DNA of 64,000 bases. Origin: Alphaproteobacteria bacterium. GTDB lineage: Bacteria > Pseudomonadota > Alphaproteobacteria > Bin65. The stretch lies in contig JAJEGH010000045.1 in assembly GCA_022819985.1 (NCBI GenBank), positions 62,001 to 126,000 on the forward strand, read 5' to 3'. This document shows, in pieces, positions 8,831 to 59,907 of this stretch; the stretch's first letter is position 1, and the number at the start of each line of letters is the position of its first letter. The notes below the pieces were generated by a model, which was not told the DNA's origin, ran no database searches, and saw only the letters and a program-made list of their open reading frames with translations. A program made the translations under genes and the position numbers.

Positions 8831-10097
8831 CCGGGGCCACGTCTATCTGGCGATGCTGGTCCTGCTCCATGTTCCTGCGGCGCCGGAGCAGGGCGGGCGC
8901 CATGGCGATGTAGATCAGCGTGCCGGTCACCGCCGCGATTCCCAGAACCGTCTGCAAGCCGAAACGGTCGGCCAGGAAGCCCATGACCAGCGCGCCGAGC
9001 GCCGGGCCGCCGACGGATACGGACGAACTCATGCTGATCGTGCGGCCGCGCATGTCCGGCCGGGCGATGGTTTGCAGGAGGCTGTTGGACCCGACCTGAA
9101 CCGACAGCAGCGACAGCGAGACGATGAAGATCAGTCCGGCCGCCAGCCAGAACCGGTCCGTGAGCGTAAACAGGAACAGGGCGGAACCGGCCAGGAAGGC
9201 GCCGGTCAGCATGATCCGCGTGAGTCCTTCGGTGCGCCCGCGGACCAGCAGGAACAGCGCGCCGACCAGGGCGCCCAGGCCGGCCGCGGCATTGAGCGTC
9301 GCCAGCCCCTCGGCGCCGCGTCCGAAAACCGTATCGGCAAAACCGGGCAGCAGATCGTGGAAGGGCCGGATCAGCAGGCCGCCGGCGAACGACATGCCGA
9401 GCAGGAACAGGAGCGAGGGCGTCCGGCCGACATAGCGGAACCCTTCCAGAAGATCGGCGAAGATGCCCGGCCCGCCGGGGTCGCGCGGCCGGACGGGATC
9501 GCGCCGGATCAGCCAGATCATCGTCAGCATCCAGGCCGAGGTGCAGGCGGACATGAGGATCGACGCGCCGCTGCCGATCTTGGTGATCAGGACGCCGGCG
9601 ATCACCGGCCCGACGAAGGCGCCCATGTGGAACGAACTGGCGTTGAGCGCGACCGCGGCGGAGATCGACGCCCGGTCTACGAGTTGCGGGATCAGCGACT
9701 GGCGCGCCGGGAAATCGATGCCGAAGAACAGGCCCTGGAGCAGTGTGAGCGCGACCAGCAGGGGCGCCGTCATATGTCCGGAGAGCGCGATCGCGCCGAT
9801 GGCGAAGGTCGTCAGGAACAGGCCGGTTCCGGAGCGCAGCGCAACCCGCCGATGGCCGTAGCGGTCGGCCAGCGCGCCGGCGAACGGCCCGATGACCATC
9901 ACCGGGATCAGGGAGGCGAAGGCGACGATGCCGAGGAAGGAGGGCGAGCGGGTCAGTTCCCAAGCGAGCCAGCCCAGGCCGATCCGGTTGCCCCACCAGC
10001 CCATGACGTGGACGACATGCCCGCTGACATAGAAACGGTATTCCCGGTGCGCGAGCGCGCGCGAAACGCCGCCGAGAGACTTGTAGCTGAAACGCAA
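8823..10097 (-). CDS. MFS transporter (DHA3/EntS-like)
   Basis: Inner-membrane transporter with twelve likely membrane segments in 424 residues. The loop motif ADRYGHRRVALRSG between helices 2 and 3 is the MFS signature A-type motif, and ADRFGLQTVLGIAA repeats it in the second half. It resembles the EntS/DHA3 group that exports siderophores or drugs; the substrate is unknown. The start at TTG 10097 has no obvious ribosome site and should be treated as provisional; the conserved region begins at about ALAHREYRFYVSG. It stands alone between a convergent MDR gene and the ligA end. Confidence 0.9.
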   Translation of the reverse strand: MRFSYKSLGGVSRALAHREYRFYVSGHVVHVMGWWGNRIGLGWLAWELTRSPSFLGIVAFASLIPVMVIGPFAGALADRYGHRRVALRSGTGLFLTTFAIGAIALSGHMTAPLLVALTLLQGLFFGIDFPARQSLIPQLVDRASISAAVALNASSFHMGAFVGPVIAGVLITKIGSGASILMSACTSAWMLTMIWLIRRDPVRPRDPGGPGIFADLLEGFRYVGRTPSLLFLLGMSFAGGLLIRPFHDLLPGFADTVFGRGAEGLATLNAAAGLGALVGALFLLVRGRTEGLTRIMLTGAFLAGSALFLFTLTDRFWLAAGLIFIVSLSLLSVQVGSNSLLQTIARPDMRGRTISMSSSVSVGGPALGALVMGFLADRFGLQTVLGIAAVTGTLIYIAMAPALLRRRRNMEQDQHRQIDVAPAS

Positions 10098-46642: not shown

Positions 46643-48169
46643 ATGCTGACGACACTGGGCGAAGCCATCGAGAAGGCCGCGGCGGCGTTCGGCGGCAAGC
46701 CGGCGGTGATCTTCCGCGACGAACCGTGCAGCTTCGACGCCCTGAACCGGCGCGCCAACCGGGTCGCCAACGCCCTGGTGGCGCAGGGCATCGCGCCCGG
46801 CGACCGGGTGACCCTGTGCGGCCAGAATTCGACGGACTGGATGGCGGCCTATTACGGCGTCGCCAAGGCCGGCGCGGTGCTCAACCCGGTCACCGCCATG
46901 CTGACGGCCGGCGAGATCGGCTACATCGCCGGCAATTGCGGCGCGAAGCTGCTGATGGTCGGCGCCGGCAAGGGCGACGGGCTGATGGATGCGCTGGCCG
47001 GGTCCGACGTCGAGCGGGTCGTCCTGTTCGACGACGACGGGCCGGCGGATGCGACGCCGTTCGAGGACTTCATCGCCGATGCGCCGGAGGACTTCGAACT
47101 CCGGCCCCGCGGCCTCGATGAGCTCGGCGCCATCGGCTACACCTCGGGCACGACCGGCCATCCGAAGGGCGCGATGATGTCCAACCGGGCCATCGCGGTC
47201 AGCACGGCGGGCACGGCGATGATGCACGGAAGGACCGCCGCCGATATCGTCGTGACCGCGCTGCCCTGCTCCCATGTCTACGGCAAGGTCGTGATGAACT
47301 GCTCCGTCTGGTACGGCGCGACGCTGGTGCTGCACGAAAGGTTCGAGGCGGAGCCGATGCTGCGCTCGGTCGAGCAATACCGCGCGACCATGCTGGAGGC
47401 CGTGCCGACCGGCTTCATGTACATGCTCGCCGACCCGGCCATCGGCAAATACGACTTTTCGAGCCTGGAGCGGATGACCTGCGGCGGCCAGACCTTCCCG
47501 GCCGCGACCTGCGCCGAGGTCGAGGCGAAGTTCGGCGCGACGCTGATGGAATTGTGGGGCATGACGGAGCTGGCCGGCCCCGGCACGACCCACGCCTGGT
47601 CCTGCGAGCGGCGGCTCGGCTCGATCGGCGTGGCCCTGCCCTATACCGAGGCGCGGATCGGCGGCCTGGAGGACAGCGCGGAGACCATGCCGGCGGGCGA
47701 GCCCGGCGAACTGCTGATCCGCGGGCCGATCGTCATGATGGGCTATTACGGCAACGAGGCCGCCACGCAAGACTCCATGGCGGCCGACGGTTGGTTCCGC
47801 ACCGGCGACGTCTGCACCCGCGACGAGGACGGCTTCCTCTGGGTCGTCGACCGCAAGAAGGACATGATCAACACCGCCGGCTTCAACGTCTATCCGGCGG
47901 AACTGGAACGGGTCCTGGCGGCGCACCCGGACGTTTCGATGGTCGCCGTCGGCGGCGTGCCCGACGCGCAGAAGGGCGAGCTTGCCAAGGCCTATATCGT
48001 GCCGCGGCCCGGCAGCGACCCGGACGCGAACGACGTCGTCGCCCACTGCCGCAAGACGCTCGCGCCCTACAAGGTGCCGCGCAAAATCCAGTTCGTCGCC
48101 GACCTGCCGACCAACCCGACCGGCAAGATCCTGCGCCGCGAACTGCACACCATCGACGACGGGAGTTGA
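46643..48169 (+). CDS. Acyl-CoA ligase (AMP-binding, class I adenylate-forming)
   Basis: 508 residues. Activates a carboxylic acid to its CoA thioester via an acyl-AMP. Motifs: YTSGTTGHPKGAMMSN (P-loop-like A3), LWGMTELAGP (A5), GWFRTGDVCTRDEDGF (A7), RKKDMINTAGFNVYPAELE (A8) and the C-terminal lysine in PTGKILRREL (A10). Substrate unresolved. GGGGAGA lies before the ATG. Follows the SDR gene after 31 bases. Confidence 0.94.
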   Translation: MLTTLGEAIEKAAAAFGGKPAVIFRDEPCSFDALNRRANRVANALVAQGIAPGDRVTLCGQNSTDWMAAYYGVAKAGAVLNPVTAMLTAGEIGYIAGNCGAKLLMVGAGKGDGLMDALAGSDVERVVLFDDDGPADATPFEDFIADAPEDFELRPRGLDELGAIGYTSGTTGHPKGAMMSNRAIAVSTAGTAMMHGRTAADIVVTALPCSHVYGKVVMNCSVWYGATLVLHERFEAEPMLRSVEQYRATMLEAVPTGFMYMLADPAIGKYDFSSLERMTCGGQTFPAATCAEVEAKFGATLMELWGMTELAGPGTTHAWSCERRLGSIGVALPYTEARIGGLEDSAETMPAGEPGELLIRGPIVMMGYYGNEAATQDSMAADGWFRTGDVCTRDEDGFLWVVDRKKDMINTAGFNVYPAELERVLAAHPDVSMVAVGGVPDAQKGELAKAYIVPRPGSDPDANDVVAHCRKTLAPYKVPRKIQFVADLPTNPTGKILRRELHTIDDGS

Positions 48170-48601: not shown

Positions 48602-49591
48602 ATGACAGCGCCCTACAGGATTTTCGGCAGCGAGATGTCGCCCTATTCGGTCAAGGTGCGCGCCTGGTTCCGCTACAAGGACCTCCCGCATCTCTGGCTG
48701 CAACGGGCCTGGCACAGCGACGAGTTCAAGGCCCGGGCGCGGCTGCCGCTGATCCCGCTGGTCATCGCGCCGGACGACCGGGCGCTCCAGGATTCGACGC
48801 CGCTCATCGAAACGCTGGAGGCCGAGCATCCCGAGCCCGCGATCCATCCCGAAGATCCGGCGCTGCGCTTCCTGTCGGCGCTGATCGAGGAATATGGCGA
48901 CGAGTGGGGTAACAAGCTGCTGTTCCACCACCGCTGGCACGCGGACGTGGACCGGCGCGGCGCGGCGCTGGGGCTGGCCCGCGCCTTCGATCCCTATGGC
49001 GCGCCGGAAGCGGTCGGGGCGGCGGCGGAACAGATCTACGAACGCATGGTCGGGCGGCTGCATTTCACCGGGTCCAGCCCGGAGACCGCGCCGCTGATCG
49101 CCCGGTATTTCGACGATCTGCTCGCCATTCTCGAACCGCATCTGGCGGCGCGGAAATACTTGTTCGGCGGCCGGCCGGCTTTCGCGGATTTCGGCCTCGC
49201 GCCGCAGGTTTATACGATGTCGCAGGACCCGACCTCCGCCTCCGCGATCCGGGTGCGCGCGCCGAACCTGCTGGCCTGGTCGTTCCGGATGCTGGAGCCG
49301 CGCAACGATGGGCCGTTCGAAAGCTGGGACAGCCTGAAGGACACCCTGACGCCGCTGCTGGCGAATGCCGGCGCCTTCTTCCTGCCTTGGTCGCGGGCCA
49401 ATTCCGACGCGCTGGAGGCGGGGGAGGACAGCTTCAGCGTCGATCTGCCCGGCGGCGCCTATGTCCAGGGGCCGCAGAAATACCATGCCCGCTCGCTGGT
49501 CGCGCTCCGGCAGAAATATGCCGCGGCGAAGGATGCCCCCGGCCTCGCCGCCATCCTCGCCGAAACCGGCTGCCTGCCCTGGCTGGAATAG
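48602..49591 (+). CDS. Glutathione S-transferase family protein, long form
   Basis: 329 residues, about 100 longer than a typical GST. The N-terminal thioredoxin fold starts YRIFGSEMSPYSVKVRAWF, with a cis-Pro site near LIPLVIAP and DSTPLIETLEAEHP. The C-terminal domain has GGRPAFADFGLAPQ as N-cap. The extension (SFSVDLPGGAYVQGPQKYHA) is unlike ordinary GSTs and resembles the C-terminal end found in this long subgroup. GAAAGGA lies before the ATG. Last of the plus-strand run. Confidence 0.88.
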   Translation: MTAPYRIFGSEMSPYSVKVRAWFRYKDLPHLWLQRAWHSDEFKARARLPLIPLVIAPDDRALQDSTPLIETLEAEHPEPAIHPEDPALRFLSALIEEYGDEWGNKLLFHHRWHADVDRRGAALGLARAFDPYGAPEAVGAAAEQIYERMVGRLHFTGSSPETAPLIARYFDDLLAILEPHLAARKYLFGGRPAFADFGLAPQVYTMSQDPTSASAIRVRAPNLLAWSFRMLEPRNDGPFESWDSLKDTLTPLLANAGAFFLPWSRANSDALEAGEDSFSVDLPGGAYVQGPQKYHARSLVALRQKYAAAKDAPGLAAILAETGCLPWLE

Positions 49592-49623: not shown

Positions 49624-51189
49624 TCAGCCCTCCAGCACGCCGGGGTTCATCCGTCCGTCCGGGTCCAGGGCGGCGCGGATGCGGCGGTGGATGTCCGCCT
49701 GCGCCGGCGTCAGGCGCGACAGGAACGGATAGTAGCGCCCGATCTGCATGTGGGCGGCGCCGTGCGCCCGTAGGATTGCTCCGGCCGCATCCCGCAGTTC
49801 GAAGACCAGTGCGCGCCCGCGCGGATTCTCCGGCGCCTCGCGATGCAGCTTCACCTGTTCGGGCGTCGCGTGGGCGAGATGAAACGGGCTCAGCCGGTCC
49901 GGCCAGAAGAATTGCGGCTCCACCAGCACGCAGCGCGGCGCGAGGACGGTGAGGACGGTGCAGGTTACGCCGGCGTCCGCCATGTCGCCGGCGCTGGCCT
50001 GCAAACGGTCGTGCAGCGCCGCCATGCAGCCGGCGGCGCGGGCAAGGCCGAGCGCGCCATGCACCGGCAGCCAGTTTTCGCCGCGCGGGCCGAGCAGGGC
50101 GGTAATCGGCCCGAACGGCCGGGCCCGGGTGACGCGCGGAATGGTGTCCGGAAGGTCCGTGCCGCCGCGCTGCGCCAGTTCGGCCCGCAGCGCCTCGGCG
50201 CGGGCCGCGGCGTGGCGCGCATCGTCCCCTTCGACGGCAAGATGCAGCGAATAATCCGCCCGTTCCAGAAAGCCCAGGCCCTCGGCCGGCAGGCGTGCGG
50301 CGCGCGCCAGTCCGCCGGTTCCCCGCGCCACGCCGGCAGCCGCGCCGAGCTTCTCCCGGAAGCCGATCCGCCGGTCCAGGATGTTGCGGTGCGCCTGGCG
50401 GTCGAAGCTGAAGCACTCGCCGAGGCCGGGCCGGCCGGCCAGTGCCGTTTGGGCATCGAGCATCGTCAGCGGGTCGTCGAACGCCATCGACAGGAAGGCT
50501 TCGCCGCCGGCCGCCGGGGCCAGCCGCAGGGCGATCCGCGCCTTGATGCCGAACGCGCCGCAATCGCCGACGAAAAGGTGGGTCGGGTCCGGGCCGTGGG
50601 GCAGGGCGTCGACCGCTTCGGGGCGCAGCGCGCCCGTGTGCAGCAGGCGGCCGTCGGCGAGGACGACCTCCAGCCCGAGCACGCTGCCGGCAATGCTGCC
50701 GGCCGAGCCCGAACCGAAAAACATCGCGTTGTGCGAGACCGCGCCGCCGACCGTGGAAACCCCGCCGGAGAGCGGACCGAAGGACGGCGGGCGCAAGCCG
50801 GTGCTGCGCAGGGAGTCGTGCAGGGTTGCCCAGGTGCAGCCGGCCTCGACGATGGCATGCCGGTTTGCGGTATCGATTTCCGCGACCGCGGACAGCCGTG
50901 TCATGTCGAACAGGACGCAGCCTTCCGCCGACGGCGCATAGCCCCCGGTATAGGACATGCCGCCGCCGCGCGGCACGATGGCGAGGCCGCTTTCCGTGGC
51001 GGCGGCGACGGCCCTTTGCAGGGCCGGAATCGTTTCGGGGGCGACGATACACAGCGGCCGGGCCCCGGCCGGGCCGGCGACATCGTGGGACAGGCCGGCA
51101 AGCCGTTCCGGATCGGTGACGATGCCGTCCGCGCCGACCGCCGCCCTGAGGCGGTCCGGAACCGGCATTCCGGCGGGCGCCCCCGTCAT
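49624..51189 (-). CDS. FAD-linked oxidase (FAD_binding_4, GlcD/VAO type)
   Basis: 521 residues from ATG 51189, overlapping the hydrolase stop by 4 bp. FAD-binding features: IVPRGGGMSYTGGY, GGVSTVGGAVSHNAMFFGSG and GDCGAFGIKARIALRL. The C-terminus LDPDGRMNPGVL is the family end. Members oxidise hydroxy acids, phenols or sugars with FAD, sometimes covalently bound. It probably oxidises the product of the preceding enzymes in this operon. Last gene of the seven-gene run. Confidence 0.9.
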   Translation of the reverse strand: MTGAPAGMPVPDRLRAAVGADGIVTDPERLAGLSHDVAGPAGARPLCIVAPETIPALQRAVAAATESGLAIVPRGGGMSYTGGYAPSAEGCVLFDMTRLSAVAEIDTANRHAIVEAGCTWATLHDSLRSTGLRPPSFGPLSGGVSTVGGAVSHNAMFFGSGSAGSIAGSVLGLEVVLADGRLLHTGALRPEAVDALPHGPDPTHLFVGDCGAFGIKARIALRLAPAAGGEAFLSMAFDDPLTMLDAQTALAGRPGLGECFSFDRQAHRNILDRRIGFREKLGAAAGVARGTGGLARAARLPAEGLGFLERADYSLHLAVEGDDARHAAARAEALRAELAQRGGTDLPDTIPRVTRARPFGPITALLGPRGENWLPVHGALGLARAAGCMAALHDRLQASAGDMADAGVTCTVLTVLAPRCVLVEPQFFWPDRLSPFHLAHATPEQVKLHREAPENPRGRALVFELRDAAGAILRAHGAAHMQIGRYYPFLSRLTPAQADIHRRIRAALDPDGRMNPGVLEG

Positions 51190-52784
51190 CTGTCGCCGTG
51201 CAACGGGCACAGGGCCAGCGGATCGTCGTAGTGCTCGATGCTTGCGCCGCGGCTGGCCGCCCGGTTCAGCAGCGCCGTCATGTCCCCGTCCTGCGCCGCG
51301 CGGCACAGCGCGTCGTTGCCGGCGGCGCCGAGCACGGCCCCGGTAAAGCGGGCGTGGAGCAGGTTCACCGGCGGATCGTCCGGCAGGCGCCACGCGCCGG
51401 CGACGGTCCGTTCGTTCCAGTGCCGGTAGAGCAGGCTGTCGCGCGCCCAGTACCAGGCCGCTGCCAGATGCGCTCCGTCCCAGCGCAGCCGGAGATCGGG
51501 GCAGGCCGGGGCGCCGGCGGCTTCGGCGCTCTCGTTTGCGCCGGCAGGAGCCTGGGCCAGGGCCAGGCAATGCACCCCGGCCGGCCCGTCGGCGGCAAGG
51601 GCGGCGGCAAATACGGCGCCGCTGCCTTCGCCGGCCACATCGCATTCGCGGATGCCCAGAGCGTCCAGGCAGCCGCCGAGCCAGTCGACGACCGCCGGCA
51701 GGCCGGGCACCGGCGCGGCGTCCGTTTCGCCGTTGCCGGGCAGGTCGATGGCGATGGCCGGACCGCGCCGTCCCAGCCGCACCAATCGGTCGTCCAGTTC
51801 CGCCGACGAGCCCGGCGTGCGGTGGAGCAGCACGGTCGCCCTGCCGTCCTGCAGCCCGGCAAAGCGGACATGGGCCGCGCCCGCCGGCGTCTCGATGAAG
51901 CGCCTTCGCACCGGGCGCGCGCCGAGCGGGTCCGCCGCGGGCTGCGGCGCGGCCGCCTGGCCCGGATGCGCCGCCATGATTTCGCCGATGGCCGCGCCCC
52001 AGGCGTCGCGGTCGGCGCTCAGCCGATGGACGGCGATGCGGTCCGGAAGGGAGGCGGGCAGCCGGTCGAGATGGGGGAACAGCAGGTCGTCTTCCCGCGC
52101 CACGACGGCGACCGGCGCCTGCACCTCCGTCAGCGGCCCGATCCCGTCGAACCGGAAGGCGGCGGCATAGGCCGGCCGGTAACGGTCGCCGGCGCGCAGG
52201 AAATCCTCGACGACGAGCTGGTGGAAATCGAGCGGCGGCGGATCGCGCGGCAGCCGGCCGAGGTTGCCGGCCGCATACCAGGGAAAGAAGGTGAACTGGT
52301 CGCGCACCCGCGCCCACAGCCACGCGACGTGGGTGCCGTCCCAGGACGGGCGGAACGGCGGCAGATACGCGCGCAGCAATTCTTCCTGCTCGGCAGCCGT
52401 GAAGACCGGATAACCGTCCATCACGGCGACCGAAACCCGCTCGGGATGTCGAAGCGCCAGGTCCATCGCGATGCAGGCGCCGGTATGGGTGCCGTAGACC
52501 GGCGCCCGCGCGATGCCCAGCGCCGCCAGCGCGTCGGCCAGCGCGTCGGCGTAGTCGGCGCTCGACGGCCGGTCCATCGCCAGCGGATCGGAGCCGCCGA
52601 AACCCGGCGTATCGAAACCGAAGACGGTGAAGCGGCCGGCCAGCCGCTCCATCAGCGGCAGCAGGGCGACCGACGAGCGCGGCGATTCGTGCAGCAGCAC
52701 GGCCGGCGGGCCGCTCCCGGCGTAGCGGAAGCTGACCTCGCGGCCGGCGATGTCGACGGACTGGCGCCTTGCCCGGAAGGTCAT
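51186..52784 (-). CDS. Two-domain alpha/beta hydrolase fusion lacking nucleophile serines
   Basis: 532 residues: two alpha/beta hydrolase folds in tandem (about 1-275 and 295-532). The halves match each other: VLLHESPRSS versus VLLHRTPGSS, FDTPGFGGSD versus IDLPGNGETD, and WDGTHVAWLWARVRDQ versus WDGAHLAAAWYWARDS. At the nucleophile elbow GxSxG, domain 1 has GTHTG (98-102, His in place of Ser) and domain 2 GEGSG (385-389, Gly at that place). Neither has the expected serine. Either it is a non-hydrolytic relative (lyase, binding or oxygenase-like role) or it uses another residue. Between the ABC permease and the FAD oxidase, overlapping the latter by 4 bp. Confidence 0.85.
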   Translation of the reverse strand: MTFRARRQSVDIAGREVSFRYAGSGPPAVLLHESPRSSVALLPLMERLAGRFTVFGFDTPGFGGSDPLAMDRPSSADYADALADALAALGIARAPVYGTHTGACIAMDLALRHPERVSVAVMDGYPVFTAAEQEELLRAYLPPFRPSWDGTHVAWLWARVRDQFTFFPWYAAGNLGRLPRDPPPLDFHQLVVEDFLRAGDRYRPAYAAAFRFDGIGPLTEVQAPVAVVAREDDLLFPHLDRLPASLPDRIAVHRLSADRDAWGAAIGEIMAAHPGQAAAPQPAADPLGARPVRRRFIETPAGAAHVRFAGLQDGRATVLLHRTPGSSAELDDRLVRLGRRGPAIAIDLPGNGETDAAPVPGLPAVVDWLGGCLDALGIRECDVAGEGSGAVFAAALAADGPAGVHCLALAQAPAGANESAEAAGAPACPDLRLRWDGAHLAAAWYWARDSLLYRHWNERTVAGAWRLPDDPPVNLLHARFTGAVLGAAGNDALCRAAQDGDMTALLNRAASRGASIEHYDDPLALCPLHGDR

Positions 52785-52794
52785 GGCGTCCGCC

Positions 52795-53601
52795 TCAATG
52801 GACGGCTTGCGGGGCCGGCCCCGCCGTGCCTTCGCGCCGCCGCGAGACGTGCCAGGGCACGAAGGCGCGCTCGGCGAGTTCTACGATGTAGAACAGGATG
52901 GTGCCGACCACGGCGAGCAGCAGGATCGCCGCAAAGATCCGCGTTGTGTCGAAGGTCGGTTGCGCCGAATCGATGACAAAACCGAGCCCGGCCTGCGAGG
53001 CGACGAACTCGCCGACGATGGAGCCGATGAAGGCGAAGGAAATACCGACCTTCATGCCGGCGAACATGCTCGGCAGCGCCGTCGGGAAGCGGATCTTCCA
53101 CAGGGTCTGCATCGCCGATCCCCGCATCGACCGGGCGAGATCGAGCATGTCGGGTTCGACCGAACGCAGGCCCAGCACGGTATCGATGACGATCGGGAAG
53201 ACGGCGATCAGGAAGGCGATGGCGACCTTGGGCTCGATCCCGGCGCCGAACCAGACGATGAAGAGCGGCGCGACGGCGACCTTCGGGATCGAGTTGATCG
53301 CCACGAGGAAAGTGTAGAGCGTCTGTTCGACGAAGCGCGAGAAGACGATCCCGATCGCCATCACCAGGCCGACGACGACCGCCAGCAGAAAGCCCAGCGC
53401 CGTCTCCTTCAGGGTCTCCAGCGTGTGCATGCCGTACCACAGCGGCTCCGCGGCGATATCGGCCAGCACGCGCGAGGGCGCCGGCAGGAGGAACGGCTTG
53501 ATGCCGAAAACGATGACCGCCCCTTCCCAGATCAGGCCGAAGCCGATCAGCACCAGGACGACATTGAGGATCCGCCCGTTTCGGGTCGACCAGAAATCCA
53601 T
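52795..53601 (-). CDS. ABC transporter permease (SsuC/TauC/ThiX type)
   Basis: Inner-membrane permease, 268 residues, about six membrane helices. The cytoplasmic loop with LARSMRGSAMQTLWKIRFPTALPSMF holds the EAA-like motif that meets the ATPase. Family relatives import sulfonates, nitrate, pyrimidine precursors or other organic substrates. Two bases separate it from the ATPase gene, and ten from the fused hydrolase. Confidence 0.93.
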   Translation of the reverse strand: MDFWSTRNGRILNVVLVLIGFGLIWEGAVIVFGIKPFLLPAPSRVLADIAAEPLWYGMHTLETLKETALGFLLAVVVGLVMAIGIVFSRFVEQTLYTFLVAINSIPKVAVAPLFIVWFGAGIEPKVAIAFLIAVFPIVIDTVLGLRSVEPDMLDLARSMRGSAMQTLWKIRFPTALPSMFAGMKVGISFAFIGSIVGEFVASQAGLGFVIDSAQPTFDTTRIFAAILLLAVVGTILFYIVELAERAFVPWHVSRRREGTAGPAPQAVH

Positions 53602-53603
53602 CG

Positions 53604-54455
53604 CTACTGCCCCCGTTTCATGACGCCCAGCCCCTCGAAAATCTCGCGGATGTGCCGGACATAGCCCGAGAAGTCCGGCGTCTCCCGGATATCGAGCGCG
53701 CGCGGCCGGTCGAGACCGATATCCAGGATTTCGACGATGCGCCCCGGATTGCGCGACATCACGACGACCCGGCTGGACAGGAACACCGCTTCGGGAATGC
53801 TGTGGGTGATGAAGACGATCGTCTTGTGGGTCGCTTCCCAGATGCGTTCCAGTTCGAGGTTCAGCTCGTCGCGCGTGATGGCGTCCAGCGCGCCGAACGG
53901 CTCGTCCATCAGCAGCAGCGACGGATCGCGGATCAGGCCCCGGCAGATCGCGACCCGCTGGCGCATCCCGCCCGACAGTTCCCAGGGGAAGCGGTCGGCG
54001 AAATCCTCAAGCTCGAACAGGTGCAGGAGCTCCATCGCCTTGTCGCGCCAGTCTCCCGTCCTCAGGCGCGCAAATTCGATCGGCAACAGGATGTTGTCGA
54101 TGACCGAGCGCCAGTCGAGCAGCACGTCGCGCTGGAAGACGATGCCGGTATCCCGGGGCGGCTCGACGACCGGCTGGCCGCGGATCGCGACGTCGCCGGC
54201 CGTCAGGTCCTCCAGGCCGGCGATGCATTTGAGCAGGGTGCTCTTGCCGCAGCCGCTCGGCCCGAGGACGCTGATGAACTCGCCGTTGCGGATGTCGAGG
54301 TCGATCGCCTGGAGCGCTTCGACGTCGCCGCGTTCCGAATGGTAGGTCTTGTCCAGGCCGGCGATCCGGACATAGGGCTCGCCGATGCCGTCGCCGGAAA
54401 CTCCGGCCGCGCCTGCCGGCGCAGCCGGAGCCCCGTCCCCGGGCGGTGCCGCCAT
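53604..54455 (-). CDS. ABC transporter ATP-binding protein (SsuB/TauB type)
   Basis: 283 residues. Walker A GPSGCGKST, Q-loop QRDVLLDWRSV, signature LSGGMRQR, Walker B LLLMDEPFGALD, switch His FITHSIPEA. The order and sequence are those of the nitrate/sulfonate/taurine class. A Gly/Ala/Pro-rich 25-residue N-terminal tail precedes the domain. Starts four bases after the binding-protein gene. Confidence 0.95.
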   Translation of the reverse strand: MAAPPGDGAPAAPAGAAGVSGDGIGEPYVRIAGLDKTYHSERGDVEALQAIDLDIRNGEFISVLGPSGCGKSTLLKCIAGLEDLTAGDVAIRGQPVVEPPRDTGIVFQRDVLLDWRSVIDNILLPIEFARLRTGDWRDKAMELLHLFELEDFADRFPWELSGGMRQRVAICRGLIRDPSLLLMDEPFGALDAITRDELNLELERIWEATHKTIVFITHSIPEAVFLSSRVVVMSRNPGRIVEILDIGLDRPRALDIRETPDFSGYVRHIREIFEGLGVMKRGQ

Positions 54456-54459
54456 GGGG

Positions 54460-55470
54460 TCAGCGGGGCATGAAGGAGGCGTTGTAGAAGTCCGTGGTCT
54501 TCATGCTCGCCTTGATCCGCCCCAGGCTCTTGAGCGTTTTGACCGTGTCGTCCCAGTCCTTCTCGCTCATGTAGCCCATCGGCTTGCCCTTGGTCGTCGG
54601 CGAGAAGAAATACGGCCGGTAGGCGTTGAAGATCAGCTTGCCGACCACCATCGACACGCGCGCCTTCGGCCGCTGGTCGATCATCGCCTGCACGGCCTCG
54701 TCGAGGCCGCCGTCGAGGATGTGTTTCCAGCTCCGCGCCAGGGCGGTCATGAATGCCTTCATGGCCTTTGGCTTCTTCGCGATCGAATCGTCGTTTGCGA
54801 CGATGCCCCAGGACAGCATGGGCAGGCCGTTTTCCGCGAAACCGACGAAACCCGACGGCCGCTTCTTCGCCGCGATCGCCAGGAAGAACGGGACCGGCCC
54901 GATCACGCCGTCGCCGCGGCCCGACAGGTAGGTCGCGATCTTCGCCGACGCGGCCACGGCCAGCAGATTGACATCGCTGCGCTTGAGGCCGCCCTGGGCG
55001 AGGAAGGTGTCGATGAAGGGCGCCTCGATCGACCCGGAGGTGTAGACCAGCGTCGTGCCCTTGAAGTCCTTCGGACCCTTGTAGGGCTTGCCCTTGGAGA
55101 AGATGACGCCGACTTCGTTCCTCCGGAGGATGCTGCCGATCGCCGTGACGGGCAGCCCCTTGTTGCGGGCCAGCGCCATCACCGAAAGCGAGGCATGGCC
55201 GATATCCGCCTGGCCGGCGCCGACGAGGCCGACCGTCGAGGCCGAGCCCTTGCCGTCGACGATTTTCACGGTAACGCCGGCTTCCTTGAACCAGCCCTTG
55301 GCCTGCGCCAGGTAGAAGGGCGCGTGCATGCCGTGGGGCGACCAGTCCTTCATCAGGGTCAGGCTCATGCTGTCGTCGGCCCTGGCCGGCGCCAGTCCGA
55401 TGCCCGCTGCAAGGGTCAGGGCGAGTGCCGCCCGCGTCGTGCCGGTCGTTATCGTGCTTGTCCTGCGCAT
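54460..55470 (-). CDS. ABC transporter substrate-binding protein (NMT1/THI5-like)
   Basis: 336 residues, with a signal peptide (TRAALALTLAAGIGLAPARA, then DDSMS). The mature part opens LTLMKDWSPHGMHAPFYLAQAKGWF, the NMT1 fold mark, and continues VGAGQADIGHASLSVMALAR. The pocket suggests an organic heteroaromatic or sulfonate-like ligand, but this is only by family. Transporter genes of this class usually sit with catabolic genes, as here. It is 86 bases from the ligase upstream. Confidence 0.92.
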   Translation of the reverse strand: MRRTSTITTGTTRAALALTLAAGIGLAPARADDSMSLTLMKDWSPHGMHAPFYLAQAKGWFKEAGVTVKIVDGKGSASTVGLVGAGQADIGHASLSVMALARNKGLPVTAIGSILRRNEVGVIFSKGKPYKGPKDFKGTTLVYTSGSIEAPFIDTFLAQGGLKRSDVNLLAVAASAKIATYLSGRGDGVIGPVPFFLAIAAKKRPSGFVGFAENGLPMLSWGIVANDDSIAKKPKAMKAFMTALARSWKHILDGGLDEAVQAMIDQRPKARVSMVVGKLIFNAYRPYFFSPTTKGKPMGYMSEKDWDDTVKTLKSLGRIKASMKTTDFYNASFMPR

Positions 55471-55556
55471 GTCTTCCCTCCGTTGTTTCGGACCCCGGAT
55501 GCGCGTCCGGGGCCGGGTTGGCCGGCGGGTGCCGCCGGCGGAATATCCGGTCCGGC

Positions 55557-57092
55557 TCAGGCCTCGCGCAGCTTGCGCTTCAGCACCTTGCCCGCCGCGT
55601 TGCGCGGCAGGGCGCCGGTGAATTCGAACGTCTTGGGCACCTTATAGGGCGAGAGATGCTCGCGACAGAAGGTTTCGAGCGCCCGCGCCTCCGGCGCCGC
55701 GCCGGGCTCCGGCACCACGAATCCCTTCAGTTCCTCGCCCCATTTCTCGTTCGGCACGCCGATCACGGCAACGTCGGCGACGCCGGGATGGCGGAACAGG
55801 ATTTCCTCGATTTCCCGCGGATAGATGTTGATGCCGCCGGAGATCACCATGTCCTTCTTGCGGTCGACCAGATAGACGAAGCCCTCCTCGTCCCGGGTCG
55901 CCATGTCGCCGGCGCTGAACCAGTCGCCGCGGAAGCAGGCCGCCGTTTCCTCCGGTTTGCCCCAGTAGCCGTTGAAGATGTAGGGCGAATTGCTGAACAG
56001 TTCGCCGACCTCGCCGGGCGCAACCTCCCGGCCGTCGTCGTCCAGCAGGCGGACATGGCTCGCGACGAACGGCAGGCCGACGCAGCGCTGTTTGATGAGC
56101 TGGTCGGCCGGGCGCAGGTTGGTGACGATTCCGGCCTCGGTCGAACCGTAGGTCTCGTGCAGGACGCCTTCGCCGAAATAGTCGACGATCCGCTCCTTGG
56201 TCGCCTGGGCGAGCGGCGCGGCGTTCGACACGATCGCCTTGAGCCGGTCGAAGGCGCGATATCGCTCCAGGACGGGACGCTCCAGCGCGAAAACGGCGTG
56301 GAAATGGGTCGGCACGAAAAAGGTTCCGCCCAGCTGTTCCGTGGCCAGCCGCTCGATCACCCGTTCGGGATCGAACCCCGGCAGGATTTCGCAATAGCCG
56401 CCGAAATAGACGATCGCCACGGCGAACGCGAAGCCGGCGCCGTGAAACAGCGGCGCCGTCGCCAGATAGCGGTCGTCCGGGCCGTAGCAGCCGTATTCCG
56501 AGGCCATGCCGTAGAAGGTGAGGACGCGGGAGCGGTGCGGCAGCACCACGCCCTTGGGCTCGCCGGTCGTCCCGGAGGTGTAGGAAATCGAGAAGGGCGA
56601 CCATTCGGGCAGCGGCGCCGGCCGCAGGGGCCGGGCCTCGGCGAGCAGGGCGTCGTACTCCTCGCCCAGAACGACGATCCGCTCGACGCTGTCCAGCGTC
56701 AGGCCGCGGACGGTTTCGGCCAGATCGGCGTGGACGAACAGGACGCGCGCGCCGCAATCGTCGCAGATGTAGCGGATCTCCCGGCCGACCAGCCGGGGGT
56801 TCAGCGTCGCGACCGCCACGCCGGCGCAGGAAGCGCCCGCGACGATCTCGATATACTCCAGGCAGTTGGGCGACAGGATCGCGGCGTTGTCGCCCGGCTC
56901 GAGGCCGAACCCGTCGGTCACCATCGCGCTCACCCGGTCGATCCGGTCGACCAGCGCGGCGTAGGTCAGCGTCCGGCCGCCTTCCCGCAGGGCGGTCTTC
57001 TCCGGCGTACGCTCGGCCGCGGCGCGCATGCCGGTCGCGATGGTGAGCGGCCGGTAGGTGGCGGGCGGAGACTGCGCCGGTGCCGGGGTCAT
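55557..57092 (-). CDS. Acyl-CoA ligase (class I adenylate-forming)
   Basis: 511 residues from ATG 57092. Motifs: SYTSGTTGEPKGVVLPH, ETYGSTEAGIVTNL, GDWFSAGDMATRDEEGF, RKKDMVISGGINIYPREIEE and the C-terminal lysine in NAAGKVLKRKLRE. Activates an imported or intermediate carboxylic acid as CoA thioester. A second gene of this type is at 46.6-48.2 kb, but the two are not close copies. Between the amidohydrolase (19 bases upstream) and the ABC importer. Confidence 0.94.
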   Translation of the reverse strand: MTPAPAQSPPATYRPLTIATGMRAAAERTPEKTALREGGRTLTYAALVDRIDRVSAMVTDGFGLEPGDNAAILSPNCLEYIEIVAGASCAGVAVATLNPRLVGREIRYICDDCGARVLFVHADLAETVRGLTLDSVERIVVLGEEYDALLAEARPLRPAPLPEWSPFSISYTSGTTGEPKGVVLPHRSRVLTFYGMASEYGCYGPDDRYLATAPLFHGAGFAFAVAIVYFGGYCEILPGFDPERVIERLATEQLGGTFFVPTHFHAVFALERPVLERYRAFDRLKAIVSNAAPLAQATKERIVDYFGEGVLHETYGSTEAGIVTNLRPADQLIKQRCVGLPFVASHVRLLDDDGREVAPGEVGELFSNSPYIFNGYWGKPEETAACFRGDWFSAGDMATRDEEGFVYLVDRKKDMVISGGINIYPREIEEILFRHPGVADVAVIGVPNEKWGEELKGFVVPEPGAAPEARALETFCREHLSPYKVPKTFEFTGALPRNAAGKVLKRKLREA

Positions 57093-57111
57093 GACGCTGC
57101 GTCCGGCGCCG

Positions 57112-58008
57112 TTACCCGGCCGCCCGCGCGTCCGTCGCCCGCGCATCCGCCGCCGATTCCGGCAACCGGAAGACGCGCAGCGCATTCTCCCGCATCAGCG
57201 CGCGCCGGCTTTCCGGGCGCAGGTCCAGGGCGGCGATTTCGGCCACCGCGCGCTCCGGATCGATGACCGGCCAGTCGGTGCCGAACAGGACCTTGCTGCG
57301 GCCGTAGGTGTCCAGGTAATGCACGATTTCCGGCGGCCAGTGCTTCGGCGCGTAGGCGTCGACGCCGATGAAGATATTCTCGTGCTTCCAGGCCATGGAG
57401 ATCATCTCCTGGGTCCAGGGCACGCCGATATGGATGCCGAGCAGCTTGAGTTCCGGAAAATCGATCGCCACCTGGTCGAGGCAGATCGGCCGGCCGACGC
57501 TCGGCAGGCGCCGGTTGCGCGAATAGATCAGGCTGTGCCCGACCTGCATCATGATCGGAATGTCGAGTTCGCAGCACTTGGCGTAGTAGGGGTAGTATTT
57601 GGCGTGGTCCGGTGCCAGGCCGAACCAGTGCGGATAAAGATGCGCGCCGACGAAGCCATGGTCGCGGACCGCCTCCTCCAGGTCGCGCAGGCCCTGCATG
57701 CCGCGGAACGGATCGACGCCGGCGAGCCCGGAGAAGCGGCCGGGATGCGCGGCGCAGACCTCCGCAACCCGGCTGTAGGGAATTTCGAAGGATTCCCGGA
57801 CGTTCAGATCGCCCGCCCGCACCGCAATCAGCAGGGAGCGCGCGATTCCCGCCCGGTCCATCTTCGCGAGATAGTCCTCGACCGAAACCCCGCCGCGGTA
57901 TTCCGGCGGCATGCGGATCTGCGCCTTGAACGTGTCGTCCAGCCCGGTCTGGCCGAGCCGCACTTCCCGTTCGGTAAACAGGTTGCAGACGATGTCTATG
58001 GCATCCAT
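57112..58008 (-). CDS. Amidohydrolase_2 family protein with degenerate metal motif
   Basis: 298 residues from ATG 58008. TIM-barrel of the ACMSD/gamma-resorcylate decarboxylase type: FVGAHLYPHWFGL (strand 4 His), KLLGIHIGVPW (strand 6 His) and VLFGTDWPVID (strand 8 Asp). The N-terminal metal motif, normally DxHxH, reads AIDIVCNL: both histidines are replaced. Some family branches lack it. It likely decarboxylates or hydrolyses an intermediate. First gene of the seven-gene run. Confidence 0.85.
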   Translation of the reverse strand: MDAIDIVCNLFTEREVRLGQTGLDDTFKAQIRMPPEYRGGVSVEDYLAKMDRAGIARSLLIAVRAGDLNVRESFEIPYSRVAEVCAAHPGRFSGLAGVDPFRGMQGLRDLEEAVRDHGFVGAHLYPHWFGLAPDHAKYYPYYAKCCELDIPIMMQVGHSLIYSRNRRLPSVGRPICLDQVAIDFPELKLLGIHIGVPWTQEMISMAWKHENIFIGVDAYAPKHWPPEIVHYLDTYGRSKVLFGTDWPVIDPERAVAEIAALDLRPESRRALMRENALRVFRLPESAADARATDARAAG

Positions 58009-58140
58009 CGGGTCGCCTCTTCCCGGTATTCGCCGGTCCGCATCGCCCGGCGGGGCGCGACTGTAGAGCCGCGCCCGGCCGGTGTCACCCGGTAAGCCCC
58101 GGTTTCGTCGCCAGGGCAGGCCCGCCATGCGCCAGACACA

Positions 58141-58360
58141 GGCCGCCCCTCCGACCCTTCGATACGCCCCGGCCCGGGGGCCGGGGCTACTCAGGATGAG
58201 GAAGAGGGGGTGTTGAGGCCTTTGAGTCCCCCGAACAATCTCCTCATCCCGAGTAGGCGCGTCAGCGCCGTATCGAGGGGGCCGTATCGAGGGGGCCGTA
58301 TCGAGAGCCTGCCCTGAGCGAAGCCGAAGGGGGGCCGTATCGAGGGGCTTCCGGTATCGG
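58141..58360. repeat. Intergenic hairpin and tandem repeat upstream of the catabolic operon
   Basis: The 58009-58438 gap holds no gene. CTACTCAGGATGAGGA (58187-58202) pairs with 58241-58256 with one mismatch. Then GCCGTATCGAGGGG is repeated at 58267, 58281, 58295 (partial) and 58333 onward. Similar CTCATCC/ATCGAGGGG elements are dispersed in many alphaproteobacteria. A promoter for the operon must lie here or just upstream of 58008, but none was clear. Confidence 0.8.
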
Positions 58361-58438
58361 GGTGCCGACATAGCACAACATCGTCCGGCCGGCCGCGGAC
58401 CGGACCGCGCGGGCGGCAGCCTTGCCGCACAGCGGCGA

Positions 58439-59140
58439 TCAGCCCACCGCGACCGTCGCCATCGGATAGTGGCGGTTGCCGCCGGCGAAGGGCGGCAGGG
58501 TGTGGAAGTCGGCGCGCATGTCCTGCATCACCGATGACGCCATCGCCGCCTTGAGGGCGTCGCCGTCGTCGAACACCACCTTGTTGCGCTGCATGTGGTC
58601 GACGCGCGGCCAGGGCAGGGCGCCGCACCAGTCGATGCGCGAGCAGACCTCGATCTCGCGGATCGCCGGGAAGGTCGCCATGATCCGCGTGTGGTTCTCC
58701 AGATAGTGCGCCAGCCAGGCGCCGATGTCTTCGGCCTCGCCGGGATAATGGACCAGGTAGGTGCACCAGGGCGCGCCCGGCGGCGTGCGGAATTCGGGAT
58801 CGGGCACCGGAAAGGCCCGAGCCAGCATCGCCTGCTGTTCGCGCGCGGCGCCGGCGAGCGAGGGCAGGGCGCCGGGCGCCGCCAGCGCCTGGAGATGGCC
58901 GTCCGGCGCCAGCGCCGCCTCGAGGTCGCCGATCTCGTCGAAATAGAGTTGCAGCGCCAGTTGCGGCGCCACGCCGTCGTCGAAATAGAGGCCGCTCACG
59001 TCCCAGGGCGTGTAGACGAGGCCCTTCGACAGGCCGGGCGTCGCGCCGACGACATCGCAGACGAAGCGGTGCTCGGCGTCCGGCAGCCGCAACTCGGCGT
59101 CGGCCGGATCGTGCAGAGTGGCGAACCAGGCAAAGCGCAT
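58439..59140 (-). CDS. EthD-like/dimeric alpha-beta barrel protein, uncharacterised
   Basis: 233 residues from ATG 59140. Two ferredoxin-like halves; the second carries YLVHYPGEAEDIGAWLAHYL and HTRIMATFPAIREIEV, which resemble EthD-type dimeric barrel proteins found in degradation clusters. No catalytic residues can be assigned. It lies between the catabolic operon and the carboxymuconolactone decarboxylase-like gene, so it may belong to the same pathway. Confidence 0.7.
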   Translation of the reverse strand: MRFAWFATLHDPADAELRLPDAEHRFVCDVVGATPGLSKGLVYTPWDVSGLYFDDGVAPQLALQLYFDEIGDLEAALAPDGHLQALAAPGALPSLAGAAREQQAMLARAFPVPDPEFRTPPGAPWCTYLVHYPGEAEDIGAWLAHYLENHTRIMATFPAIREIEVCSRIDWCGALPWPRVDHMQRNKVVFDDGDALKAAMASSVMQDMRADFHTLPPFAGGNRHYPMATVAVG

Positions 59141-59277
59141 GTCCGCGCGTTTAGTCGAAAGCGCTCCTTGGGGCAAGGATGTGGGGCAAGCACGCCGGAC
59201 AAATACGCCGTTCGGGCCGCGCTCTGGCCAGCCCGGCGGGTTTCGTGCCACATTCCGCGTTTCGCAACGCCGATCCG

Positions 59278-59301
59278 CCGGAGACGAAGCCGGAGACGAA
59301 G
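59278..59301. repeat. 12-bp tandem repeat before the CMD-like gene
   Basis: CCGGAGACGAAG occurs twice in a row (59278-59289, 59290-59301), ending four bases before the start codon and including its ribosome site. Confidence 0.9.
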
Positions 59302-59304
59302 AGG

Positions 59305-59907
59305 GTGCCGAATCCGCTATTGCGCAGGGTCGGGCCGGAGGCCATGGCCGACTGGCTTCGGACCGCCTATCGCGAGAGCCGTGCCTTGCAGGAAAGCAAG
59401 GGCGGCGACGCGACCTTTTACGAGATCGGAGCCAACGCGCCCGAACTGCTCGAATGGTACATCCGGGGCTTCTACGGCTCGGTCTTCTACGGCGGCCGGG
59501 TCGACGTCCGGATGAAGGAGCTGCTGCGCTACCGGCTGTCGATGACCCATGGCTGCGCCTACTGCAACAAGGGCAATATCGAGGCGGCGCGCCGCGCCGG
59601 CCTTGGCGACGACAAGCTTGCCGCCGTCATGGACGCGGACAGCGACGTCTTTACCGGACCCGAGCGCGCGGTCCTGCGCCTCGCCGCGGAAATGGCGCTG
59701 ACCAACATGGACGGCCGGCTGACGCCGGCCCTGTACGAAAGCCTGTCGGCGCATTTCGACGACGGCGAGATTTTCGAACTCGGCATGGTGGCGGCCGTGC
59801 TGACCGGCATGGCCAAGTTCCTCTTCGTCTACGACCTTGTGGAGCGCGAGGCCCATTGCCCGGTCGGCCCGCCGCCGGCGATGGAAGAACGGGCGGCGGC
59901 GGAGTAG
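59305..59907 (+). CDS. Carboxymuconolactone decarboxylase (AhpD-like) family protein
   Basis: 200 residues from GTG 59305; ATG 59344 is a second possibility. All-helical AhpD-like fold with redox motif CAYC in SMTHGCAYCNKGN. Family members are peroxidase partners or decarboxylases. The GTG is preferred because CGGAGA lies about nine bases upstream and the protein then starts PNPLLRRVGPEAMADWL as relatives do. It lies beyond the EthD-like gene on the opposite strand. Confidence 0.88.
   Translation: MPNPLLRRVGPEAMADWLRTAYRESRALQESKGGDATFYEIGANAPELLEWYIRGFYGSVFYGGRVDVRMKELLRYRLSMTHGCAYCNKGNIEAARRAGLGDDKLAAVMDADSDVFTGPERAVLRLAAEMALTNMDGRLTPALYESLSAHFDDGEIFELGMVAAVLTGMAKFLFVYDLVEREAHCPVGPPPAMEERAAAE

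Follow-up and report, generated by a model that had tools for sequence, protein, structure and literature searches.

Do the seven closely spaced genes that lie on the minus strand between positions 58008 and 49624 of a 64,000-nucleotide stretch (the window) of contig JAJEGH010000045.1 belong together, and if they do, what might they be for? The window is part of an alphaproteobacterial genome of 4.04 Mb in 51 contigs. The closest named genomes are those of uncultured Rhodospirillaceae, and because one of these originates from Spongia, the lineage, probably a marine one, is also probably sponge-associated. We propose that the seven genes are a self-contained catabolic operon that imports a small organic compound and degrades it in a CoA-dependent manner, a reading to which we assign a probability of about 0.6. 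All seven reading frames are present and, in the sense of transcription, they are the following.

57112..58008, minus strand: amidohydrolase (AMH), 298 aa; Amidohydro_2 (COG2159-type) TIM barrel (PF04909, 1.5e-43)
55557..57092, minus strand: CoA ligase (LIG), 511 aa; AMP-forming acyl-CoA ligase (PF00501 and PF13193)
54460..55470, minus strand: importer binding protein (SBP), 336 aa; NMT1/THI5-type periplasmic binding protein (PF09084, 4.3e-41)
53604..54455, minus strand: importer ATPase (ATP), 283 aa; ABC ATPase of the taurine/nitrate/sulfonate type (PF00005)
52795..53601, minus strand: importer permease (PERM), 268 aa; ABC transporter permease (PF00528)
51186..52784, minus strand: tandem hydrolase (DABH), 532 aa; tandem alpha/beta-hydrolase, with Abhydrolase_1 found twice
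49624..51189, minus strand: FAD oxidase (FAD), 521 aa; flavoprotein oxidase or dehydrogenase of the VAO/PCMH superfamily (PF01565, 2e-31), overlapping DABH by 4 bp

The spacings along the operon are 19, 86, 4, 2, 10 and -4 bp, the last being the DABH/FAD overlap. Every frame and spacing thus agrees with the initial annotation, which had read seven minus-strand genes here with gaps of 2-86 bp and one 4-bp overlap. Pfam backs all seven family names that it had given (Amidohydro_2; AMP-binding with AMP-binding_C; NMT1; ABC_tran; BPD_transp_1; Abhydrolase_1 in two stretches; FAD_binding_4). Promoter- and terminator-like matches across the region, including a single promoter-like one upstream, occur at chance level only, and an Rfam search of the region gave zero matches.

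The gene set is conserved as a unit within the genus. All seven genes are found in the same order in the congener genomes G002, G003 and G006. In G004, AMH and LIG lie at the edge of one contig and the five genes from SBP to FAD open another, the order apparently being kept. Within the host's order, the tandem hydrolase is confined to this genus, where five of seven genomes have it. The congener G001 lacks the operon. It still carries, at locus L151 (about 9214-10049), the gene for the carboxymuconolactone decarboxylase (CMD)-like protein that lies beyond the operon in the window. At 92 bp from this gene is a 167-bp remnant of the 3' end of the oxidase gene, 90% identical to window positions 49631-49797; the window stretch 49798-59301 (~9.5 kb) is missing. 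One block deletion is the simplest reading of this state and, since G001 retains CMD after the loss, CMD can outlast the operon.

Outside the genus, the four enzymes travel together and the importers are exchanged. An AMH alignment was used to scan the genomes of 84,980 species, which yielded 80 sampled loci (designated L plus a number), mostly in Alpha- and Gammaproteobacteria, AMH positions being taken from tblastn. LIG lies on the same strand within 500 bp of AMH in 70 of the 80. The core AMH-LIG-DABH-FAD is found again in other families of the class: DABH directly follows LIG in ten loci outside the genus, DABH and FAD are adjacent in ten loci, three of them congeneric, and AMH comes directly after DABH at L126 and L127. 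In G296 (L040), the order of the core is unchanged at identities of 74% for AMH, 64% for LIG, 44% for DABH and 46% for FAD, and an SBP_bac_5/Dpp-type importer with an isochorismatase-type hydrolase is found where the host's genus has its NMT1 system. The full core is accompanied by a Dpp-type importer at L095, L097 and L098 as well as at L040, by a Liv-type importer at L071 and by a TRAP-type importer at L073, L076, L077 and L091; over the AMH loci as a whole, these types are also found at L069 (Dpp), L134 and L143 (Liv) and L111 (TRAP). The importer is a replaceable part and the four enzymes are the core. As an indicator of the substrate the importer was rejected, because its class varies among loci. 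Compared over 10 loci, the four core enzymes have distance matrices that correlate with r between 0.854 and 0.948 (permutation p about 0.0001-0.0002), shared species history contributing in part. Conservation, block loss and correlated divergence together rule out a chance adjacency of the seven genes. The initial annotation had named a lack of conservation of the set among relatives as a refutation of its claim; this check was run, and the claim withstood it.

How might such a unit work? The NMT1-type ABC importer would take up a small ring compound, probably carboxylate-bearing and possibly nitrogenous, which the FAD enzyme, of the VAO/PCMH type, would oxidise. The tandem hydrolase, marked by a G-x-H-T-G motif described below, would cleave or isomerise the oxidised product, FAD and DABH acting as a pair. 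AMH would then perform a further bond change (hydrolysis, hydration or decarboxylation) to give an acid, and LIG may convert this acid to its CoA thioester for central metabolism. FAD is paired with DABH, and AMH with LIG, because each pair is found adjacent where the other is absent. We infer the catabolic role, the succession of the FAD-DABH and AMH-LIG steps and the direction of the pathway. The unit itself and the general idea of import, CoA activation, cleavage and oxidation are supported by the conservation, the block loss and the correlated divergence. To this extent the scheme first drawn for the locus (import, activation, cutting and oxidation) stands in general, with the correction that the importer is its replaceable part.

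Three observations weigh against this reading. L069 and L070 have FAD directly after LIG, with no DABH between them. The NMT1 importer is common beyond the genus at the family level only (NMT1 is found near AMH at L147, L148 and L154), so that it need not carry the substrate of the enzymes. Finally, the contexts of AMH-LIG in Gammaproteobacteria are very different, and for this reason AMH-LIG may serve more than one pathway. The alternative that survives best, which we nevertheless consider unlikely, is that two sub-pathways lie side by side, a wide and old AMH-LIG and a separate DABH-FAD, with an unrelated NMT1 importer inserted in the host's genus. There, the importer is set exactly between LIG and DABH; Gammaproteobacteria usually have AMH-LIG without DABH or FAD, and DABH-FAD adjacency without AMH is seen at L041, L054 and L195. 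However, the ten non-congeneric loci with DABH directly after LIG, the two with AMH directly after DABH, and the strong distance correlation between the pairs all argue against it.

The neighbourhoods of relatives suggest breakdown settings, several of them pointing to nitrogen-containing rings. In Beta- and some Alphaproteobacteria, AMH-LIG is found with acyl-CoA dehydrogenase, isochorismatase, allantoinase-like deacetylases, TTT, Liv or NMT1 importers and IclR regulators. At L138 and L142 it stands with molybdenum hydroxylases, a ureidoglycolate-lyase-like gene, a berberine-bridge-type FAD oxidase and a G-H-H-T-G hydrolase, in islands that also hold UbiD, CaiB, hydantoinase, isochorismatase and LeuCD; a route through maleimide or citraconate would fit such a combination of genes. 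In Gammaproteobacteria, the companions are an EbdA-like molybdoenzyme, a DsbA-like isomerase, a DUF4437 cupin and sometimes a bilin-reductase-like gene. The latter, a ferredoxin-dependent type (PF05996, 1e-19), lies downstream of AMH-LIG and the EbdA-like molybdoenzyme at L112:15812-16504 and at 7 other gammaproteobacterial loci, and looks like a bilin-reductase relative placed in a catabolic operon.

A bolder and rather doubtful proposal is that the core would be an undescribed route for nitrogen-ring compounds of the pyrrole, imide or ureide type, with the hydrolase bearing a histidine at its elbow as a new catalytic class, paired with an amidohydrolase without a metal site. It draws support from the genes that adjoin AMH-LIG relatives, namely those for hydantoinase, isochorismatase-type amidase, LeuCD and molybdenum hydroxylase, together with the ureidoglycolate-lyase-like, allantoinase-like and bilin-reductase-like genes. 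The host genome, 4 Mb in size, contains 15 isochorismatase-type, 11 hydantoinase A and about 40 Abhydrolase_1 matches. The enrichment in isochorismatase and hydantoinase genes, once considered as proof of a nitrogen-ring substrate, was downgraded to suggestive in view of these 15 and 11 matches; with so many amidases of these kinds in the host genome, the substrate class is still a guess.

The same neighbourhoods bear on the idea that the cluster is biosynthetic or modifying, that is, that it makes or tailors a metabolite from a precursor supplied by the NMT1 importer. Natural-product clusters also contain CoA ligases, FAD_binding_4 oxidases and alpha/beta-hydrolases, and the probable association of the host lineage with sponges would be in keeping with such a role. 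We find it distinctly improbable, however, as the set is without synthase, carrier protein or exporter, related loci hold several importer types (Dpp, Liv, TRAP and TTT binding proteins), and the partners found there are catabolic: acyl-CoA dehydrogenase, isochorismatase-type amidase, hydantoinase, LeuCD, UbiD and IclR regulators.

Within the catabolic operon that we favour, two of the enzymes are unusual. DABH consists of two alpha/beta-hydrolase domains, an N-half (residues ~7-258) whose profile detects the C-half (residues ~294-526). The elbow of the N-half reads G98-T-H100-T-G102 (G-x-H-T-G), which puts a histidine at the position where catalytic alpha/beta-hydrolases have their Ser, Asp or Cys nucleophile; the C-half has G-E-G-S-G at its elbow, without the G-x-H-T-G motif. 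The elbow histidine is present in 27 of 29 class-wide relatives and in all 16 aligned AMH-linked DABH sequences. Asp233 and His238 are likewise invariant in these 16, among which no further conserved C-terminal histidine follows His238. The structural model (pLDDT 86, pTM 0.86) places His100 between strand 94-99 and helix 101-112, and with this model Foldseek retrieves epoxide hydrolases and fluoroacetate dehalogenases, as expected of an alpha/beta-hydrolase fold. Among the 30 best Abhydrolase_1 matches of the host genome, there is no other histidine elbow; where the residue can be read, it is nearly always Ser, Asp or Cys. To our knowledge, there is no case of a histidine as the catalytic elbow residue in this fold.

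A tree built from 91 domains places 37 of 39 N-halves in one group with one truncated 'single' (support 99/93), and the C-halves cluster separately on longer branches. Judged from these sequences, DABH goes back to one old tandem duplication, the C-half of which changes faster and is degenerate. Single-domain relatives with G-x-H-T-G are found near AMH-LIG in Comamonas and Variovorax. Outside the AMH context, L042, L057 and L059 have paired neighbouring genes for G-x-H-T-G tandem hydrolases. In its fold and in the N-terminal half of the domain, DABH resembles hydrolases with a Ser, Asp or Cys nucleophile, such as the enol-lactonase PcaD, the C-C hydrolases BphD and HsaD, N-acetylaminomethylene-succinate hydrolase (3kxp), and the fluoroacetate dehalogenases and epoxide hydrolases, but it differs from them by its elbow histidine and its tandem duplication with a degenerate C-half.

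The second unusual enzyme is AMH. In 81 aligned sequences, the HxH of strand 1 is replaced by V-x-N (in the context I-D-I-V-x-N) and the histidine of strand 5 by Gln155; from general knowledge of the superfamily, we take these positions to be metal ligands. Asn9 and Gln155 are found in 81/81 sequences and V7 in 80/81. The strand-6 His193 and strand-8 Asp245 typical of Amidohydrolase_2 are present in all 81, and His123 and His127 are also invariant. The model (pLDDT 91) matches best, among PDB entries, 3irs (the uncharacterised BB4693), and then dihydroxybenzoate decarboxylases. AMH thus shares the fold, the strand-6 histidine and the strand-8 aspartate with the Amidohydrolase_2/COG2159 enzymes (gamma-resorcylate and dihydroxybenzoate decarboxylases, the hydratase LigJ, ACMSD) and with BB4693, but lacks the HxH and the strand-5 histidine of these enzymes. 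BB4693, for which the entry names no function, has a Met at the aligned strand-5 position.

By the residues that they carry, neither the 'double hydrolase' DABH nor the 'amidohydrolase' AMH, in which most canonical metal ligands appear to be gone, is to be read as an ordinary hydrolase. The loss of Ser/Asp/Cys at the elbow with decay of the C-half in DABH, and of HxH and the strand-5 histidine in AMH, might mean that both enzymes are catalytically dead scaffolds or binding proteins, but this is very improbable, as the substituted residues are strictly kept (His100, Asp233 and His238 of DABH in 16/16; Asn9, His123, His127, Gln155, His193 and Asp245 of AMH in 81/81) where one would expect drift in dead enzymes, of the kind seen in the DABH C-half. 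A function for DABH is favoured because its three residues are conserved.

LIG, with its AMP-binding and AMP-binding_C domains, is an ANL enzyme, a general acyl-CoA ligase that reaches no equivalog cut-off in NCBIfam. FAD shares the FAD-binding domain (FAD_binding_4) of the VAO/PCMH oxidases, and the structures of glycolate, vanillyl-alcohol and eugenol oxidases align with it over residues 10-250 only; its substrate domain is unmatched by sequence, the Pfam FAD-oxidase_C match spanning just 26 residues. PF09084, PF00005 and PF00528 in three adjacent genes identify an NMT1-type ABC importer, like TauABC, SsuABC, the nitrate systems and ThiY in the families of its binding protein, ATPase and permease and in gene order, but with NCBIfam scores far under the equivalog cut-offs. 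The closest solved relatives of SBP are THI5 and pyrimidine-precursor binders, weak at about 1e-18; the ATPase is SaoA/TauB/NtrCD-like and the permease SaoP/SsuC/TauC-like, every score being under cut-off.

As a whole, this is an ordinary type of operon, one for peripheral catabolism, in which two of the enzymes are unusual. A limited search of open-licence papers turned up no described pathway that matches the gene set. The plasmid pJE1 of Sphingomonas sp. JE1 carries a similar arrangement, with a tandem hydrolase, an MFS gene and then an FAD enzyme 34% identical over its length; it differs in having no AMH-LIG in the 19 kb read, where LeuCD, a cupin, MmgE/PrpD and HapK are found. The function of the pJE1 cluster was not found in a limited search of the open-licence literature.

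Three further features lie beyond the operon.

59305..59907, plus strand: CMD-like protein, 200 aa; carboxymuconolactone decarboxylase/AhpD fold (PF02627); outside the operon
58439..59140, minus strand: EthD-like two-domain protein, 233 aa; judged to be outside the operon
58184..58257, no strand assigned: inverted-repeat copy with arms CTCATCCTGAGTAGCC / CTCATCCCGAGTAGGC, between the EthD-like gene and the operon

The initial annotation had mentioned EthD-like and CMD-like genes as lying beyond the operon, and they fare differently. The CMD-like protein belongs to its family (PF02627, 49.8 bits against a cut-off of 23), and its gene adjoins the core in 4 congeners, divergently, and at the other end of the core at L040, L095 and L097, the L040 copy being 81% identical. 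Together with its survival alone in G001, this makes CMD loosely associated with the operon, outside it. The EthD-like protein has no Pfam hit and scores 26.0 bits against the TIGR02118 cut-off of 30.5. Its gene, 430 bp upstream and behind a dispersed repeat, adjoins the operon in the host genome and G002 only. Like the GST gene (48602-49591) and a second ligase gene (46643-48169), it was rejected as an operon member, all three being companions of the operon in these two genomes only. Allowing up to 2 mismatches, the arm CTCATCCTGAGTAGCC has 78 + 80 matches in the host genome, compared with 0 + 1 for a reversed control, and the copy near the operon lies within a 263-bp stretch (58146-58408) that is unaligned in G002.

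Four widespread proteins, mostly annotated as 'amidohydrolase', 'AMP-binding', 'alpha/beta hydrolase' and 'FAD-binding', are here joined into one testable unit. The unit is found in Alphaproteobacteria, and the AMH-LIG pair also in Beta- and Gammaproteobacteria, the carriers being largely marine or uncultured. Cultured carriers include Flavimaribacter sediminis, Marinibacterium profundimaris, Variovorax and Comamonas, so that laboratory strains are at hand in which to test the pathway. Should the G-x-H-T-G hydrolase prove active, it would add a catalytic residue to those of the alpha/beta-hydrolase fold; if it is inactive, a whole family would prove to be misannotated as hydrolases.

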